From assembly GCA_012514645.1 (NCBI GenBank), contig JAAYZW010000251.1, forward strand, positions 1 to 34,049: a stretch of 34,049 nt of DNA. Reading direction: 5' to 3'. This stretch comes from Chloroflexota bacterium. Its GTDB lineage: Bacteria > Chloroflexota > Anaerolineae > Anaerolineales > Anaerolineaceae. Position numbers and translations under genes: made by a program. The notes beneath the pieces are model-generated. The model worked only from the letters and a program-made list of their open reading frames with translations, had not been told where the DNA came from and made no database searches. This document shows positions 2,965 through 29,933 of the stretch, one piece after another. Within the stretch, counting starts at the first letter, position 1. Each line of letters begins with the position of its first letter.

Positions 2965-5541
2965 TTACCCCAGGATGATTTCCACCTGCGAGCCGCCGGG
3001 ACCCTTGGTGACCTCAATACGATTGGAGAAATAATCTTTCAACTCCTCCAGATGGGTGATAATCAGCACCTTCTCAAAATCTTGTCTGACGATATTAATC
3101 GCTTCGATTAAACGCTGACGACCTTGCGCGTCCTGATTGCCAAAACCCTCATCAATTACCAGCGTCTGCAATTTCGCGCCGGCACGGCGGGCAAGCACCC
3201 GGCTGAGTGCCAGGCGAATCGAAAAATTGATGCGGAAGGCTTCGCCGCCGGAATAGGTCTCATAGTCACGCGTGCCAGAACCGTCACTGACGACGATGTC
3301 GAGCGTCTCCATCATGTCTTTACGCTTGCTATCTTTATATGCCCTCTGAGGGTTGAAACTGACGCTCATACTGTAGTCAGACAGCCGGGCGAGCAGCAGG
3401 TTTGCCTGTGTTTCCAGTTCAGGCAGGGCTTGTTCAATCAGCATTGCCGGCACGCCGTCTTTACCAAAAGCGGTTTCCAGCTTGGCATATTGGCGGATCT
3501 GCTCATTGAGGGTTTCCTTCTCCGCCCGCAGCCTGATCTGGCGTTCACGCTGGGTCTGAATGGTCGCCAAAGCTTGGTCGACTTCGCCGAGCTTGCGGTT
3601 GACACTGTCTTGCCCCTCACGCAGTTCTACCAACGCTTTTTCAATTTCGCGGCTGTCTGGCAGGTTGGCTCGGGCTTCCCGCAGAGCTTGCGCTTCTGAC
3701 ACAAAGCGAGCTTCTGTTTCTCGCAGTTCTTCCTGCTCATGGGCAATATCTTTCTGCAGAGATTCCAGTTCAGCGTGGTGCAGCGAGCTGCTGGTTCTGG
3801 CTATCTGCAGTTCCTGCCAGGTCTCTTCAGCCGCCGCCGTTTCCTGTACCGCCTGCCGAAGTTGGTTGTGAGCATTTTGGTCATAAGACAGTTCCGCTAA
3901 TTGTTGAGCGACCACAGCGATTTCTGCCCGTACTTCGGGTAAAAAGTTGTCGTTCTTAATCTCTGCTTGTGCTACCTTAAGACGGGCTGCTTTGCCGCTG
4001 TTCCAGACCCTCTCTCGATCTTGCAGCTGCTCCGTTTTCTGCTGCAACAAAGCCTGTTGAGTGGTCAGTTTGTGCCGCTGGGCTTCCTGCTGCTGTGCCT
4101 TTTTTAACTGGCTATCCAGTTCCTCTTTTTCTGCTTTCACTTTTTCCGTCTCGGTGCGGTTGGATCGGAACTGGTCGCCCAAGGGTTTGCCAAGAATATT
4201 GATTTCGCTGATAATCTCGAGTCTGTGTTCAGCGGTCAGATCTTGCCCGCACATTGGGCAAGCGCCGCCTTTGGCAGATTCCACTTTGCTGCGCCGGTTT
4301 GCCAACTCATCCATGCGCGCTTTCAGACTGCCCTTCTCGCCCTCCAGCCGCTCAATCTGGCTGGAGAGTACGTTGATCTGCTTGGTCAGTTCTGCCTGCT
4401 CTGGCATCATAGAAAGTTCCGCTAATTGATCAGCCAGTTCTTTTAACTGCTCATTCGTCTGGCTGGAAGATTTCAATGCCTCCTGTAACTCACGCTCTTC
4501 ATCCCGCAGTGAGGCAACCTCTCGTTCGAGCGATTGCAGATAGCTTTTGATTTGAGAATCGAGCCCAGCGCGCTGACGTTCCAGGGACCAATATTTTTGA
4601 GAAATTTGGTCATAGCCATTCAGGCTCTGTCGGTTGCTCAGCAACTTCTGGTAGGCATTTTCGATTTCAACAGCCTGGGCAAGCTTCTCTTGATAACCAG
4701 CCAGCGCAGCCTGCTTTTCAGAGGCTTGTTGTTCTTTCCTCTTGACTGCCTGGCGCTGCCGCTCAACCTGTTGTACGAGATTTTCAAGCTGACGTTCCTG
4801 GTTGGCTACCAATTGCGCTTGTGCTCTGGCAGCGTCAAGCTGTGCCTGCTGGGTGCTGGTTTTCTCACGCAGCAACGCCAGTTCACTCTCCAGCAACTTG
4901 CGCTCTTGTTTTTGGTGGTCTTCAGTATCGAGCTCTTCCTGGATTTGGGCGATATTAATGTCGAGCAATTTTGCGTCGGAACGAGCCTTGCGGTTTTTTT
5001 CGTTAGCGGCTTTGCGAAACACTTCCCACTGGTCAAGCCCCAAAATCGTGGAAAGAATCTCTTTTCGCTCAGACGGCTTTTTGGTGGCAAAAGAATCGGC
5101 TTTGCCCTGCAAAAAGAAAGATGCATTCACAAAGCTTTCATAATCCAGCCGAAGCGTATTGAGTATTTTCGCATCGGTCTTGCGTACGGTGTACTCTGTC
5201 AGCGGCTTCCAATTGAAACTATCGGAATCAGCATCCGGATTCTGGATGAAGAAATCGAGTGTCGTTGATTTACCCCTGGTGTTACGGCGGCAGACACGGT
5301 AGACCTGGTTTTCATATTCGAAATCGAGCGTGACCTCAGCGAATTTACTGGCAGTGTTAATGATCGCTTCGTTTTGTACCCGGGCTTTGCCATATAGCGC
5401 GTAGGTGATCGCATCCAGAATCGAAGATTTGCCGGCACCGTTTGCGCCAGAGATACAAGCCAGGTCAAAACCGGTAAAGTTGATATTGACTGCCTCACGG
5501 TAAGAGGTGAAGCCTTCAAGGCGTAAGTTAATCGGAATCAT
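2965..5541 (-). CDS. SbcC/Rad50-type SMC-like ATPase with zinc hook
   Basis: Walker A GANGAGKSS near the N-terminus, long coiled coil, central CPMCGQ zinc hook, TYSGGEAFRINFSIRLALSRVLA signature, TLVIDEGFGNQD Walker B. Confidence 0.92.
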   Translation of the reverse strand: MIPINLRLEGFTSYREAVNINFTGFDLACISGANGAGKSSILDAITYALYGKARVQNEAIINTASKFAEVTLDFEYENQVYRVCRRNTRGKSTTLDFFIQNPDADSDSFNWKPLTEYTVRKTDAKILNTLRLDYESFVNASFFLQGKADSFATKKPSERKEILSTILGLDQWEVFRKAANEKNRKARSDAKLLDINIAQIQEELDTEDHQKQERKLLESELALLREKTSTQQAQLDAARAQAQLVANQERQLENLVQQVERQRQAVKRKEQQASEKQAALAGYQEKLAQAVEIENAYQKLLSNRQSLNGYDQISQKYWSLERQRAGLDSQIKSYLQSLEREVASLRDEERELQEALKSSSQTNEQLKELADQLAELSMMPEQAELTKQINVLSSQIERLEGEKGSLKARMDELANRRSKVESAKGGACPMCGQDLTAEHRLEIISEINILGKPLGDQFRSNRTETEKVKAEKEELDSQLKKAQQQEAQRHKLTTQQALLQQKTEQLQDRERVWNSGKAARLKVAQAEIKNDNFLPEVRAEIAVVAQQLAELSYDQNAHNQLRQAVQETAAAEETWQELQIARTSSSLHHAELESLQKDIAHEQEELRETEARFVSEAQALREARANLPDSREIEKALVELREGQDSVNRKLGEVDQALATIQTQRERQIRLRAEKETLNEQIRQYAKLETAFGKDGVPAMLIEQALPELETQANLLLARLSDYSMSVSFNPQRAYKDSKRKDMMETLDIVVSDGSGTRDYETYSGGEAFRINFSIRLALSRVLARRAGAKLQTLVIDEGFGNQDAQGRQRLIEAINIVRQDFEKVLIITHLEELKDYFSNRIEVTKGPGGSQVEIILG

Positions 5542-7276
5542 CGTCCATCCCTAATGCTTTGTTAGCCGCGCTGGTGGTCATCGGCGGTTTTTCTTCGCCC
5601 AACAGATCCTTCCAGAATTGGTGATCGTACCTGCGCGAGCGGATCGGAATGGGCATGGGCACGCCCCAACCGAGCATGAGCACCTCCTCTTTGGGCTGCA
5701 GTTTGGCAAGCATCCCGCGTAGCCCGCCCCTGCCGGGCAACCCCGAGAGCACGGCGTTAATATCGTTTTCATCGCCGAGCGAGCCTGAAATCCGCGTGCC
5801 CAACTGAGACATAACCTCATCATAAATCTGTGACGGGCGCTGGTCAATGATCAGCAGGGTAACGTAATACTTGCGCATTTCACGAGCGATGGTGCTGAAA
5901 ATGGTCTGGGATGCCATCTCACGATTGAGCAATTTGTGGGCTTCTTCCACGACAACCACAAGCGGTCGCGGCTCCGGACCATTACCGCTGTGGTAACTCT
6001 CGGTGGCGCGCTCCCAGGCATCACGGATCTTGCGGGTGATCAGATTGGTTACCAGCAAATAGTCGAGTTCGCTGTCAAATTTTCCGAATGAAAGCACAAC
6101 ATGGCGCTTGTTTTGCAGGGCAGTAATGATATCCTGCAAACCGTTGCTAGCTGGCGAATCAATTAAATAAGGTCGATTATAGAGGCGACCCAACTTGCTG
6201 CGGAGCGCCTCAGCCGCGCCAGCGTGAATGCCAGCCTGGCGCGCCCAAAAAGCGACGCTGTCTGGGGCGGGTTCGGTTTTTCCATCCTCATTCTCAACAG
6301 TGCTGCCAACGTTCATTTGCATGAAGGCATTAAACCAATCGCCGTGGAAATCGTTTTCGAGCTTGTCCAGCGTTGTTGGTGTGGTCTCTTTGAGATTGAG
6401 GATTTGGGTCAACTGTAAGACATCCTCAGTGGTGATATCGCTGTGGCTGATCTCGAGACTGAAGTCAGCATTCCTGTTTCCAAACCTGGTTCCTGCACCG
6501 AGTCCAACCAGGCGAACCTTGTTGTCAAACTTGCCTTTCAACCCGGGCACAGCGCTGCCGGTATCTGAAGAGGTTGTGTCAGGTCCATATTCGTTATGCA
6601 TGTCAAAAATCAATGTCGAAGCATGGTCTGCGTTGATCAAACCAGCCAAAATCATGCGCGCCAGGAACGACTTGCCCGAACCGGTGGTGCCAAAAATTCC
6701 GGAAGAACGCTGCACGAACTTGTCCAGGTTTAGGCACACCGGATGCCCCTGCTCGCGGGTACTGCCAACCCGAAAAATCGTCTTGTTGTCTTCTTTCCCG
6801 AAAATATCAGCGATGTCGGCTTCGTCAGCCAGTTTGACCGAGGCGTGGTGGTTTGGGACGGTTTTGACAGGCATGGGTGCAGGGTCGTCTGTGTTATTTA
6901 GGCGCCAACTCGAATAATCAGGCGAGTCCAGGTCTGGACCTTTATCGCGCATCAGCACGGGCATGATTGCCAGGTTTGTATAAAGGGTTTGCTGATTCAA
7001 ATACTGCGCCAGGTTCGGGGCGAAACGCTGGGCATTGAGTTGGTTGGCATATTGCTCATCAATTGCCCGCAAGCGCAGATCAGTCACCAATCCATAGAAG
7101 CGCCAGTTGTTGCTGTCAATTACAACAAAAGCGCCTTCCTGTACCTCTTGGGGAGCAACCGTAAGCCGCGCTTCAAGGTTGGCTTCCAGCCCGCCGCCGG
7201 TTATGTAGCCAATCGCCAGATCATGGGTTAATTCTTCGGTTGAGGCGTTGATTATTTTTTGTTCCATCTTATTCAT
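5528..7276 (-). CDS. HerA-like DNA translocase ATPase (DUF87 / HerA-HP family)
   Basis: HAS-barrel-like N-terminus, Walker A GTTGSGKS, Walker B LVVVVEEAHKLL, HerA-type C-terminus (IIDQRPSQIYDEVMSQLGTRI). Overlaps both neighbours. Confidence 0.9.
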   Translation of the reverse strand: MNKMEQKIINASTEELTHDLAIGYITGGGLEANLEARLTVAPQEVQEGAFVVIDSNNWRFYGLVTDLRLRAIDEQYANQLNAQRFAPNLAQYLNQQTLYTNLAIMPVLMRDKGPDLDSPDYSSWRLNNTDDPAPMPVKTVPNHHASVKLADEADIADIFGKEDNKTIFRVGSTREQGHPVCLNLDKFVQRSSGIFGTTGSGKSFLARMILAGLINADHASTLIFDMHNEYGPDTTSSDTGSAVPGLKGKFDNKVRLVGLGAGTRFGNRNADFSLEISHSDITTEDVLQLTQILNLKETTPTTLDKLENDFHGDWFNAFMQMNVGSTVENEDGKTEPAPDSVAFWARQAGIHAGAAEALRSKLGRLYNRPYLIDSPASNGLQDIITALQNKRHVVLSFGKFDSELDYLLVTNLITRKIRDAWERATESYHSGNGPEPRPLVVVVEEAHKLLNREMASQTIFSTIAREMRKYYVTLLIIDQRPSQIYDEVMSQLGTRISGSLGDENDINAVLSGLPGRGGLRGMLAKLQPKEEVLMLGWGVPMPIPIRSRRYDHQFWKDLLGEEKPPMTTSAANKALGMDDDSD

Positions 7277-7886
7277 GCTCCAGGTCGGTCAATACATCCA
7301 GCACGGCGGTGAGACGCAGATAATCGTCGCGCAGCAAAGTGATCAATTTTTGACATGCTTGTTCATACCAGCCAGTGTTGCCAGTGGATTCGTGCGCAGC
7401 TCTGGCGCGGCGTAGGTGTGCAGCCAGGATTTCTTCAATTGGTTGATCGGGCAACCGCAGAATGTGCCGAAGATAAGCCTGGTTGTTGAGCGAAGTGAAG
7501 CGAGCCAATTCTTCGGCATGACACAGGTGCATTTCATCCAGGCTCAGCGGCGGTCGCGGTGGCAGGCGGTGAGAGATTTGCCCGTTTTGGGTATAGCCGA
7601 CAGTCAAAACATGGATTTCGACCGGCAGGTTGCGATTGTAGCGGTTATCGGCTGTATATTCGGTAGGGATGCTCACCCCTGAAACCAATTGCCTCACCAG
7701 GCTGTCGTCGTTGATCAGGATATTTGTGATCAGCCCATAAATTTCGCTATGGTCTTCAAGCCTGACCTTGACCAATGCTCCCAATGCGGGTGTGTCCAGT
7801 TCACGCACCCGGCAGCCAGCCACAAAGTTGCTGTTCTCGGCTCGCAAAAGTTTGCCAATCGGTATGTTTTTCTGTCGTTCGCTCAT
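7269..7886 (-). CDS. Small HAS-barrel-like protein encoded between nurA and herA
   Basis: IPIGKLLRAENSNFVAGCRVRELDTPALGALVKVRLEDHSEIYGLITNI resembles a HerA HAS-barrel N-terminus but no P-loop is present; ATGA overlap with nurA. Confidence 0.65.
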   Translation of the reverse strand: MSERQKNIPIGKLLRAENSNFVAGCRVRELDTPALGALVKVRLEDHSEIYGLITNILINDDSLVRQLVSGVSIPTEYTADNRYNRNLPVEIHVLTVGYTQNGQISHRLPPRPPLSLDEMHLCHAEELARFTSLNNQAYLRHILRLPDQPIEEILAAHLRRARAAHESTGNTGWYEQACQKLITLLRDDYLRLTAVLDVLTDLEHE

Positions 7887-9046
7887 TTAAGACCTTTCAG
7901 ATAATCTTTGTTGGATCGATAACCGCTTAGTTGACTGTCGGCAGGAAATCTTGAGAGCAGTAGGTTTTCGATCTCCTCGTATTCCGCCTGCCTGACCACA
8001 GCCAGCTCGTGGGCACGGTGCAGCGAATAGGGGTAGGGGTGGGAGTCGAGCACCTGGGCATCATAATAGAGAGCGGCATGCACCAGGCTGACCAGCTCCG
8101 GATGCTGCGTGAGCCAGAACGGGATTTCGACTCTTGCCAGCCAGGGGTGCTCTGCCGCATTGCTGACATTCAGATAGAAAAACGCCACTCTTAACCGGTC
8201 AGCCGGTTCGCTTGGACGCTTGGAGATGATCTCGAAAAGTGCCGAACGTTCACCTGGTAAAATGCGGTCAGCCAGCAGCAAGCGGTCACTGATGCTCAGT
8301 TTGCGGTTCTGCTGCGAAGGCATTGTGGATTCCCCGAATTCGGCGAAAACCTCGAGCATGTTATGGAGCATCGATGAGCCGGGTTTGTCGATGTAACCTG
8401 CGCTCAGAATGCCCTCGCGCTCCATGTATTGGTCGATTTCAAAGACTTCCCGCTGGGCAGCCTGTGCTTTTTTGCCCTGGATATCACTCGGAAAAAAAAG
8501 ATCGAGGGGACCATCGGTCACAGTCAGAACTGGTCTGGGCAGACTGGGGGAGATTTCGTTGGCAATCAGGGTGCGCTCGGTCATATCCCGTATCAGAGTA
8601 ATATCTTCTTCGCTGATCAGGTTGCCATCATCTCTCAATATTTCTTCGTACGAGAGCAGTTCGGTGACCAGTTTGGTCGCGGGGGGTTCGCCGCTGCCAA
8701 AACGGACAGTCAGCATACCGATGTTGATCAGACCGAATTGCAGCGAGCGATGCCGGCTTGGGACGATCTGTGAACCATCGACGGTCAGCAAAGTATAGGA
8801 TTCTGGTAAACCGCCCAATGGGTAGCTTTGCAGCAGATCTTCATGCAACGGCTTCGCAAGGTAAAGCTTCGGCTTGCTTTGCCGGGCTTGCTCGATAGTC
8901 TTCTTGAGCCCTTCTGTATCAAGGCAGGCTTCCTCAAACAACGATCTCAATTTTCCGGTCGCTTTTCTGCTCTCTGCCAGCCAGTTATTGGCTTGCTCGG
9001 CATAGCGACTGGCATTTTGATCTACAGAGGCATAATTTAAGGGCAT
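7883..9046 (-). CDS. NurA-domain nuclease
   Basis: TVDGSQIVPSRHR (catalytic Asp motif), VTDGPLDLFF, GYIDKPGSSML, C-terminal YPYSLHRAHELAVV; typical NurA motifs. Start chosen at MPLNYASVDQ. Confidence 0.85.
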   Translation of the reverse strand: MPLNYASVDQNASRYAEQANNWLAESRKATGKLRSLFEEACLDTEGLKKTIEQARQSKPKLYLAKPLHEDLLQSYPLGGLPESYTLLTVDGSQIVPSRHRSLQFGLINIGMLTVRFGSGEPPATKLVTELLSYEEILRDDGNLISEEDITLIRDMTERTLIANEISPSLPRPVLTVTDGPLDLFFPSDIQGKKAQAAQREVFEIDQYMEREGILSAGYIDKPGSSMLHNMLEVFAEFGESTMPSQQNRKLSISDRLLLADRILPGERSALFEIISKRPSEPADRLRVAFFYLNVSNAAEHPWLARVEIPFWLTQHPELVSLVHAALYYDAQVLDSHPYPYSLHRAHELAVVRQAEYEEIENLLLSRFPADSQLSGYRSNKDYLKGLK

Positions 9047-9133
9047 GAGATCTCCGGAAAGAAAACAAAAGGAACAACCATAAGGCAATTATAACTATGA
9101 AAGGTTGCTCTTCCAGCCCAATTCTGACCGATT

Positions 9134-9492
9134 AGCAATTCTAAATTTGGGAAATTTTAGATCGAAAAGTGGAATGAACGCTTAATCGGACTTCGAATTT
9201 GAGGCTATTACAACACAACTGAATATAAATTTATAACAACCGTAGAGGTGGGTTCAGGGCGTGAGCAGAAGTGATTTTTTTAATCAGCCAAACCCACCTC
9301 GCTGGAATCACGGTTAATTATTGGTTTTCAATGCCTGTTCGCAGTGCTTAAGCTGGGGAGGTCTGACTATGTATGTGTTGATTGAGTGCCCACGATTTGG
9401 AACCTCCCCGTATGTTTCTGTAGTTATGCTACATATAGCCTCTGCACTTTATTAGGGCAAAAAGCTATAGTTTTTTTATATTTATAGTTGCT
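9134..9492 (+). repeat. Copy 1 of a ~340-360 bp intergenic element with imperfect terminal inverted repeats, internal hairpins and a mini-ORF
   Basis: Left end AGCAATTCTAAATTT (9134-9148), right end ATATTTATAGTTGCT (9478-9492), RC AGCAACTATAAATAT; homologous in inverted orientation to 21887-22224 (shared blocks TTTTAGATCGAAA, GTTCAGGRCGTGAGCA, AAACCCACC, AATGCCTGT, GGAGGTCTGAC, GGGCAAAAAG). Confidence 0.8.
9369..9455 (+). other. Mini-ORF (28 aa) inside element copy 1: MYVLIECPRFGTSPYVSVVMLHIASALY
   Basis: GGGGAGG Shine-Dalgarno at 9355-9361 just upstream; the first seven codons are similar in copy 2 (MYAVIEC). Confidence 0.4.
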
Positions 9493-9585
9493 GCTGACCT
9501 TTGAGAAAAAAGCCGACCTAATAGATTGGAACTAAAAGAAACTGACAAACGTCTAAGAGGTGAAGAAAGTTTTCAAGGAGAAAAA

Positions 9586-21500: not shown

Positions 21501-21878
21501 ATGTACCGTGTGCAAGGAATTGGTGGAATATTTTTCAAAGCAAAAGACCCGGAGGTGCTGCGGGAATGGTATCGCCGACACCTGGGCATCAAACTGGAAG
21601 AATGGGGCGGGGCGGTAATGTTCACCAATGCCGGGGAGAAGAACCCAGGTTACCAGATTTGGTCTATTTTTGATTCAACAACAGCGTATTTTGAACCAGG
21701 CAACGCCACATTCATGATCAATTATCGTGTTGATGACCTCAAAGCGCTTTTGGAAGTGCTGAAGCTTGAGGGCTGCCAGGTAGACGAACGCATCGAGGAA
21801 TCGGAATTCGGCATTTTCGGTTGGGTGGTTGACCCGGAAGGGAATCGCATTGAACTCTGGCAGCCGCCAGTGGAGTGA
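21501..21878 (+). CDS. VOC / glyoxalase-like family protein
   Basis: MYRVQGIGGIFFKAKDPEVLREWYRRHLGIKLEEWGGAVMF...VVDPEGNRIELWQPP; GGAGGA RBS. Confidence 0.92.
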   Translation: MYRVQGIGGIFFKAKDPEVLREWYRRHLGIKLEEWGGAVMFTNAGEKNPGYQIWSIFDSTTAYFEPGNATFMINYRVDDLKALLEVLKLEGCQVDERIEESEFGIFGWVVDPEGNRIELWQPPVE

Positions 21879-21886
21879 TGTTTCCC

Positions 21887-22224
21887 AGCAATTCTAAATT
21901 AGAAAACTAACAATGTCTTTTTGCCCTGATAAAGGCAAAATTTAATATGCATAACGGTAGGGGGAGATCCCGATCATGAGCATTCAATTACTGCGTACAT
22001 GGTCAGACCTCCTCAGCCCAAGAATCGCAGACAGGCATTAAAAACCGAAAATTTACCGCCATTCCAACGGGGTGGGTTTGCCTGATTGATAAATTCAACT
22101 ATGCTCACGTCCTGAACTCACCTTCTGCCGTTGTTACAATAGTATTGTAGCAGCCACAAATTCGGGTTTCGTTTATCCCGCATTCTGTAATTTCGATCTA
22201 AAAATTCCCATATTTAGAATTACT
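21887..22224 (-). repeat. Copy 2 (inverted orientation) of the intergenic element seen at 9134-9492
   Basis: Ends AGCAATTCTAAATT (21887-21900) and TATTTAGAATTACT (to 22224) form a terminal inverted repeat; RC aligns along its length with copy 1. Confidence 0.8.
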
Positions 22225-22266
22225 GGATACTTCCATGATTTAAAATTGGTTTACAATCCAGGAGCA

Positions 22267-27162: not shown

Positions 27163-27233
27163 GTAGGGCGGAATTAGGTGGGTGCGAAATTTGGATATTG
27201 CGATGTTTTTGCTCCCACCTAATTCCGCCCTAC
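27163..27233. repeat. Palindromic repeat R1 (71 bp, 20-bp perfect arms)
   Basis: GTAGGGCGGAATTAGGTGGG (27163-27182) / CCCACCTAATTCCGCCCTAC (27214-27233), between convergent genes. Confidence 0.92.
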
Positions 27234-29778: not shown

Positions 29779-29933
29779 CGTAGGTCGGGATGAGAGCGCT
29801 CATGAATGTTGGAGAACGAGAACCTTGTCGCGCTCTCACTCCGACAGCCAATCCAACATCACAAGCGGCGGAGTGAGGCAGGAGCAAAACCAGCGTAATA
29901 TCCAAGCCCCGCGCCCACCTCATTCCGCCCTAC
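29779..29933. repeat. Palindromic repeat R2 (155 bp, two-module form)
   Basis: Ends GTAGGTCGGGATGAG / CTCATTCCGCCCTAC; RC half matches R1 including the loop (TTGGATATT.CG..G.TTTTGCTCC). Confidence 0.85.

Follow-up and report, generated by a model that had tools for sequence, protein, structure and literature searches.

The window, by which we mean the whole 34,049-nucleotide stretch analyzed here, carries two copies of what is very probably a composite non-autonomous mobile element, in which an outer MITE encloses a pair of GTAG-tagged hairpins; we infer its mechanism from its anatomy. We propose that a RAYT-type palindrome pair inserted into a MITE in an ancestor, before three species separated, or was moved between them, and that the composite would then have multiplied as MITE cargo, its outer terminal repeats being acted on by an ISNCY-type transposase supplied in trans. 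In origin, the hairpins would have been single-stranded DNA sites that a RAYT recognized. Copies in the window's own genome now look mostly decayed.

Two window copies belong to a dispersed family

Copy 1 aligns end to end with the reverse complement of copy 2 (70% identity by blastn), so that an earlier note on this DNA, made from the sequence alone, was right to treat the two stretches as homologous. The element also lies where that note had placed it, but both copies extend one base further on each side (Table 1), and the terminal inverted repeats that it had given as AGYAATTCTAAAT are longer, measuring 17 bp with the consensus CAGCAATTCTMAATATG. Neither copy overlaps a credible gene, in agreement with the non-coding status assigned to them before. 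Copy 1 is flanked by a NurA gene that points left and a SIMPL/DUF541 gene that points right; the neighbors of copy 2 are glyoxalase-like and YgbA_NO genes. Adjoining copy 1, the minus strand carries consecutive SMC/Rad50-like, HerA, and NurA genes (2965-9088; HerA and NurA were labeled by Pfam and SMC/Rad50-like by eye).

Table 1 Features of the two element copies in the window
Feature	Position	Strand	Basis
Element copy 1, MITE with internal head-to-head GTAG-tagged palindrome pair	9133..9493	+	own-genome alignment, terminal-repeat search
Copy 1 5' terminal inverted repeat TAGCAATTCTAAATTTG	9133..9149	+	15/17 to CAGCAATTCTVAATATG
Copy 1 3' terminal inverted repeat (TATATTTATAGTTGCTG on + strand)	9477..9493	-	14/17 to consensus
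Copy 1 left target-site duplication CTGACCGAT	9124..9132	+	7/9 with 9494-9502, decayed
Copy 1 right target-site duplication CTGACCTTT	9494..9502	+	7/9 with 9124-9132
Copy 1 left GTAG-tagged REP-like unit (GTAGAGGTGGGTTC...AAACCCACCTC), first hairpin of the earlier note	9242..9300	+	unit model R2, E 2.5e-10; two alignments
Copy 1 right GTAG-type unit, inverted, foot decayed to ATAC, second hairpin of the earlier note	9355..9413	-	R2, E 3.1e-7
Element copy 2	21886..22225	-	alignment, blastn, terminal-repeat search
Copy 2 5' terminal inverted repeat CAGTAATTCTAAATATG	22209..22225	-	1 mismatch to consensus
Copy 2 3' terminal inverted repeat CAGCAATTCTAAATTAG (+ strand)	21886..21902	+	2 mismatches
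Copy 2 target-site duplication GATGTTTCC	21877..21885	+	7/9 with 22226-22234, decayed
Copy 2 target-site duplication GATACTTCC	22226..22234	+	7/9 with 21877-21885
Copy 2 left REP-like unit	22069..22128	-	R2, E 2.7e-7
Copy 2 right REP-like unit, GTAG foot intact	21957..22014	+	R2, E 7.3e-9

The search for further copies that the earlier note had suggested revealed a dispersed family. The own genome, a 2.03-Mb MAG of 252 contigs (92.6% complete, 6.0% contamination), holds 49 blastn matches to copy 1 and 85 matches to R1, a covariance model built from the core, and the repeat pair in the window is therefore not a chance similarity. At least one MITE arm is retained in 55 of 64 scored own-genome matches, indicative that the composite, rather than the bare hairpin pair, was amplified. 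Among the 28 other species of the genus, the core model matched only two, Anaerolineaceae bacterium Go_UH_bin_107 (G027; 27 matches) and G006 (7 matches), and R2, which models one hairpin unit, was limited to the own genome and these two among the 61 genomes searched. The plasmids and viral contigs searched contained nothing close to the composite or to its core.

The outer part of the element behaves as a MITE

The outer part has terminal inverted repeats, no coding capacity, a small size, and a target-site duplication, all features of a MITE. Terminal repeats near the consensus are evident in the alignment of own-genome copies, and counts of the pattern are 114 in the own genome (7 for a reversed control), 185 in G006 (control, 1), and 51 in G027 (control, 0). 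Of 400 genomes of the order, 35 have the exact repeat; they represent 24 of 130 sampled genera, and the reversed control was found in none.

Target-site duplications, which the earlier note had proposed looking for, were assessed in the 25 of 64 own-genome matches in which both terminal repeats were recognizable at the threshold used. The flanking 9-mers of these 25 copies matched at a mean of 4.24 positions, compared to 2.30 in cross-paired flanks, and duplications of 9-10 bp matching at 7 or more of 9 bases were seen in seven copies, compared to 0.0 expected from cross-pairs; both window copies reach 7/9. Fresh duplications of 8-10 bp, near-perfect or perfect, flank elements in G006 (e.g., CTGATTCACC, CTCTGAAAAT, and CCCAGGACGA). 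Most terminal-repeat elements of G006 have no core, yet many of these show perfect duplications, from which it follows that the outer element moves independently of the core.

The terminal-repeat elements of G006 (L194-L213) measure 141-1414 bp, include 66 exact terminal repeats, lie in many cases at contig ends, and contain masked or repetitive DNA; they represent an apparent recent burst. Although they reach 1414 bp, the single one translated (L194) had no transposase-like open reading frame. Separately, two elements of 515-520 bp that are 87% identical (L093:478-992 and L089:504-1023) bear the terminal repeats of the window elements and carry an additional palindrome (GTAGGGCGAGATTGG...) nested in the REP region; that of L093 has a perfect 10-bp duplication, ATACCTGAGC.

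An autonomous ISNCY-type insertion sequence shares the ends

In another genome of the order (G387), identical copies of the 17-bp terminal repeat enclose an element of 1581 bp that has an open frame of 440 aa (L244:197-1516, minus strand). This complete autonomous copy was seen once only and begins at the end of a contig, where its own target duplication is unreadable. The 440-aa protein had no Pfam match and a chance-level match at most in NCBIfam, where no curated family covers the Anaerolineales protein. Its relatives on cyanobacterial plasmids are 45-50% identical, one of them being annotated as an ISNCY family transposase, and their elements have CAGCAATTCTCATTTTG ends flanked by 9-bp duplications. 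Partial copies of the protein adjoin the terminal repeat in two further genomes (L233 and L249). The protein thus belongs to a transposase family that lacks a Pfam model and is common to Anaerolineales and cyanobacterial plasmids.

A search of the own genome with PF01609 gave one degraded transposase with none of these terminal repeats nearby, which we rejected as the MITE partner; the ISNCY-type protein escapes Pfam. The same search of G006 and G027 gave zero matches.

These findings bear on whether a RAYT alone could move the whole element, with the outer terminal repeats being incidental. The units are bona fide GTAG palindromes arranged head-to-head in the REPIN layout (PMC3116915), as such an explanation would have it. 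However, the target duplications sit outside the outer terminal repeats, which contradicts it, and both the perfectly duplicated core-less elements of G006, with their identical terminal repeats, and the autonomous insertion sequence that shares the element's ends make it hardly credible. The earlier suggestion of a MITE-like non-autonomous element is instead borne out by the terminal repeats, the target duplications above control, and the high copy number, as well as by the patchy presence in sister species and the autonomous insertion sequence.

The core is a head-to-head pair of GTAG-tagged hairpins

The 170-nt core contains two hairpins, GGGGTGGGTT/AACCCACCCC and GGGGAGGTCT/GGACCTCCCC, and both of the hairpins named previously in copy 1 (9245-9254/9291-9300 and 9355-9362/9402-9409) are indeed present. 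Alignment of the left unit to the reverse complement of the right gave a local score of 26 (2000 shuffles: mean 12.8, maximum 26). Since the two are homologous in this orientation and both start with GTAG, we regard the core as an inverted head-to-head pair. The GTAG foot is in the consensus of both units and in most of the 43 aligned units, with that of the copy 1 right unit decayed. Inverted dimers with GTAG facing outward are formed in both window copies and in most others, the two units of copy 1 being 54 bp apart. Stems of 9-10 bp fall within the 6-13 bp expected of REPs, and 96.5% of stem cells are paired across the 43 units from three species. The unit length of 58-60 nt, with a loop of approximately 36 nt, exceeds the 20-40 bp with a short loop that is usual for, but does not strictly define, a REP.

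Units of the same length in G027 and G006 have stems that differ from those of the own genome, with compensating changes. Between subfamilies, the 43 units showed 67 doubly changed stem cells compared to 22.3 in shuffles and a covariation score of 0.381 compared to 0.157, a value reached in 0 of 500 shuffles. Among 34 own-genome copies, by contrast, there were seven doubly changed cells compared to 4.6, and three covarying pairs compared to 3.5 in shuffles. The covariation asked for in the earlier note is thus strong between subfamilies and absent within the genome, as expected of copies that decay after insertion from a few related masters.

G027 also has units that lie free of a MITE, and G006 has units arranged in tandem. 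In several elements (L090, L108, and L061), the left unit is broken just after or near GTGAGC by short repeats of the GGGAACA/GGGAGC type, as though insertions recurred at this site. Elsewhere in the window, 27163-27233 and 29780-29933 hold further GTAG-tagged palindromes, including GTAGGGCGGAATTAGGTGGG...CCCACCTAATTCCGCCCTAC, which resemble in design those beside RAYT genes in two other genomes (G009 and G005).

Folding as DNA probably accounts for the core better than a functional RNA

The earlier note had also raised a dispersed structured RNA, and the core could in principle be a functional one (a small RNA or a cis-regulatory element) that was spread by the MITE and whose fold was selected after insertion. 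The consensus is predicted to fold stably, and core columns are better conserved than the arms (0.67-0.93 versus about 0.34-0.80), a contrast that is inflated because copies were found via the core, so that the core's higher conservation is partly a result of the search. A third inverted repeat, CGTGAGC/GCTCACG, could make a loop-loop contact; we rejected this kissing loop because the homology of the two units explains the repeat better.

Against an RNA stands, besides the lack of covariation beyond shuffles among the 34 own-genome copies, the absence of any strand preference, the two strands folding about equally well. Helix P1 shows more A-C mismatches than G-T wobbles, which gives no support for selection on a plus-strand RNA. 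Rfam returned zero matches at the gathering score and chance hits only at lax thresholds, in line with the earlier failure to recognize a known riboswitch, 6S RNA, or tmRNA. RNAalifold gave no structure on an alignment of 38 core copies, and structures were therefore named by hand and counted. The covariation between subfamilies does not prove an RNA either, because a GTAG-tagged REP recognized as folded single-stranded DNA would show the same. Taken together, we consider a functional RNA very unlikely. Nothing points to a dedicated RNA gene; a role as RNA for some transcribed copies is conceivable.

A RAYT gene of a sister species has the same units on both sides

Contig C99 of G027 encodes a 179-aa RAYT-like protein (Y1_Tnp by Pfam), which scores 65 bits against NCBIfam REP_Tyr_transpos, below the cut-off of 80. 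Directly 5' of the gene lies a unit nearly identical to the right-unit consensus of the window element, and 3' of it lie one degenerate unit, two units arranged head-to-head, and a further unit by itself. A RAYT gene flanked by these units is thus found at this locus and not in the own assembly. The 3.2-kb locus lacks MITE ends, with no terminal repeat above 11/17. Across the genus, RAYT homologues are often flanked by different GTAGGGG palindromes of matching design, several with 23-40-nt loops. RAYTs are known to bind folded single-stranded REPs via GTAG and irregular or loop positions (PMC8266576), which makes recognition of the present hairpins by a RAYT plausible.

The hairpins might instead be merely the interior of a MITE, with the GTAG foot and the RAYT likeness being coincidence or the G027 RAYT having inserted beside existing repeats. 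In keeping with this, no cognate RAYT for these units was found in the 92.6% complete own genome, and the 95% complete assembly of G006 carries units without any Y1 transposase at all. The close match of the unit 5' of the G027 RAYT, the further units 3' of it, the repeated association of RAYT homologues in the genus with other GTAGGGG palindromes, several of them long-looped, and the MITE-free units of G027 and tandem units of G006 all argue against it, and we give this explanation very little credence. What counts against our own composite reading is that neither of the two transposases was seen in the own genome, where the search for a MITE partner covered PF01609, that both terminal repeats are recognizable in 25 of 64 matches and a complete autonomous copy was seen once, that the RAYT of the own genome is distant (34% identity) and lies beside a different palindrome, that the G027 RAYT falls below the cut-off, and that the loops are longer than those of published GTAG REPs. 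No further close relative of the G027 protein was present in the genome collection searched.

Beyond the composite reading, it is a speculative and rather unlikely extension that this is a two-transposase element in which the palindrome pair and the MITE help each other (e.g., the RAYT aiding excision or copying) and in which loops of approximately 36 nt reflect a distinct mode of RAYT-REP recognition.

Comparison with known systems

GTAG REPs, REPINs, MITEs, and ISNCY elements are all known already, and GTAG repeats have been recorded in Chloroflexi (PMC3733652); the distinguishing features here are the length of the loop and the composite build. In the open-licence literature, we found no paper describing a MITE-REP composite or such a long loop. 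The element links MITEs moved by DDE-type transposases with REPs tied to single-strand HUH transposases, which are usually described apart. Should this composite be typical, the abundance of some high-copy REP families would stem from a MITE carrier rather than from a RAYT. Our analysis also supplies a full-size insertion sequence for the order's terminal-repeat family and widens the range of sizes seen in GTAG-tagged palindromes.

With GTAG REPs and REPINs (Di Nocera 2013, PMC3733652; Bertels and Rainey 2011, PMC3116915), the core shares the GTAG foot, a G+C-rich stem of 9-10 bp, an intergenic location, head-to-head dimers within 20-100 bp, subfamilies with compensating stem changes, and a RAYT gene flanked by the same units, here in a sister species. 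Unlike the published units, which are 20-40 nt long with loops mostly of 2-3 nt and up to 27, those described here have the greater length and loop given above, and the pair sits within a MITE and spread along with it. With MITEs derived from insertion sequences (e.g., RUP, NEMIS, and Nezha; PMC3733652), the element shares a non-coding sequence of about 220-360 bp, a high copy number, terminal repeats (17 bp here), target duplications, and the ends of an autonomous insertion sequence. Its interior, however, is a RAYT-type palindrome pair and not a remnant of an insertion sequence, and the autonomous partner was seen in another genome of the order and not in the own assembly, which was searched with PF01609. 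Finally, the ISNCY-type insertion sequences on Anabaena, Calothrix, and Gloeothece plasmids, whose transposases are those 45-50% identical to that of G387, have a terminal repeat that likewise starts CAGCAATTCTCA and 9-bp target duplications (GAAATATAC and GGCAACGAC), but their repeat ends in TTTTG, whereas that of Anaerolineales ends in ATATG.
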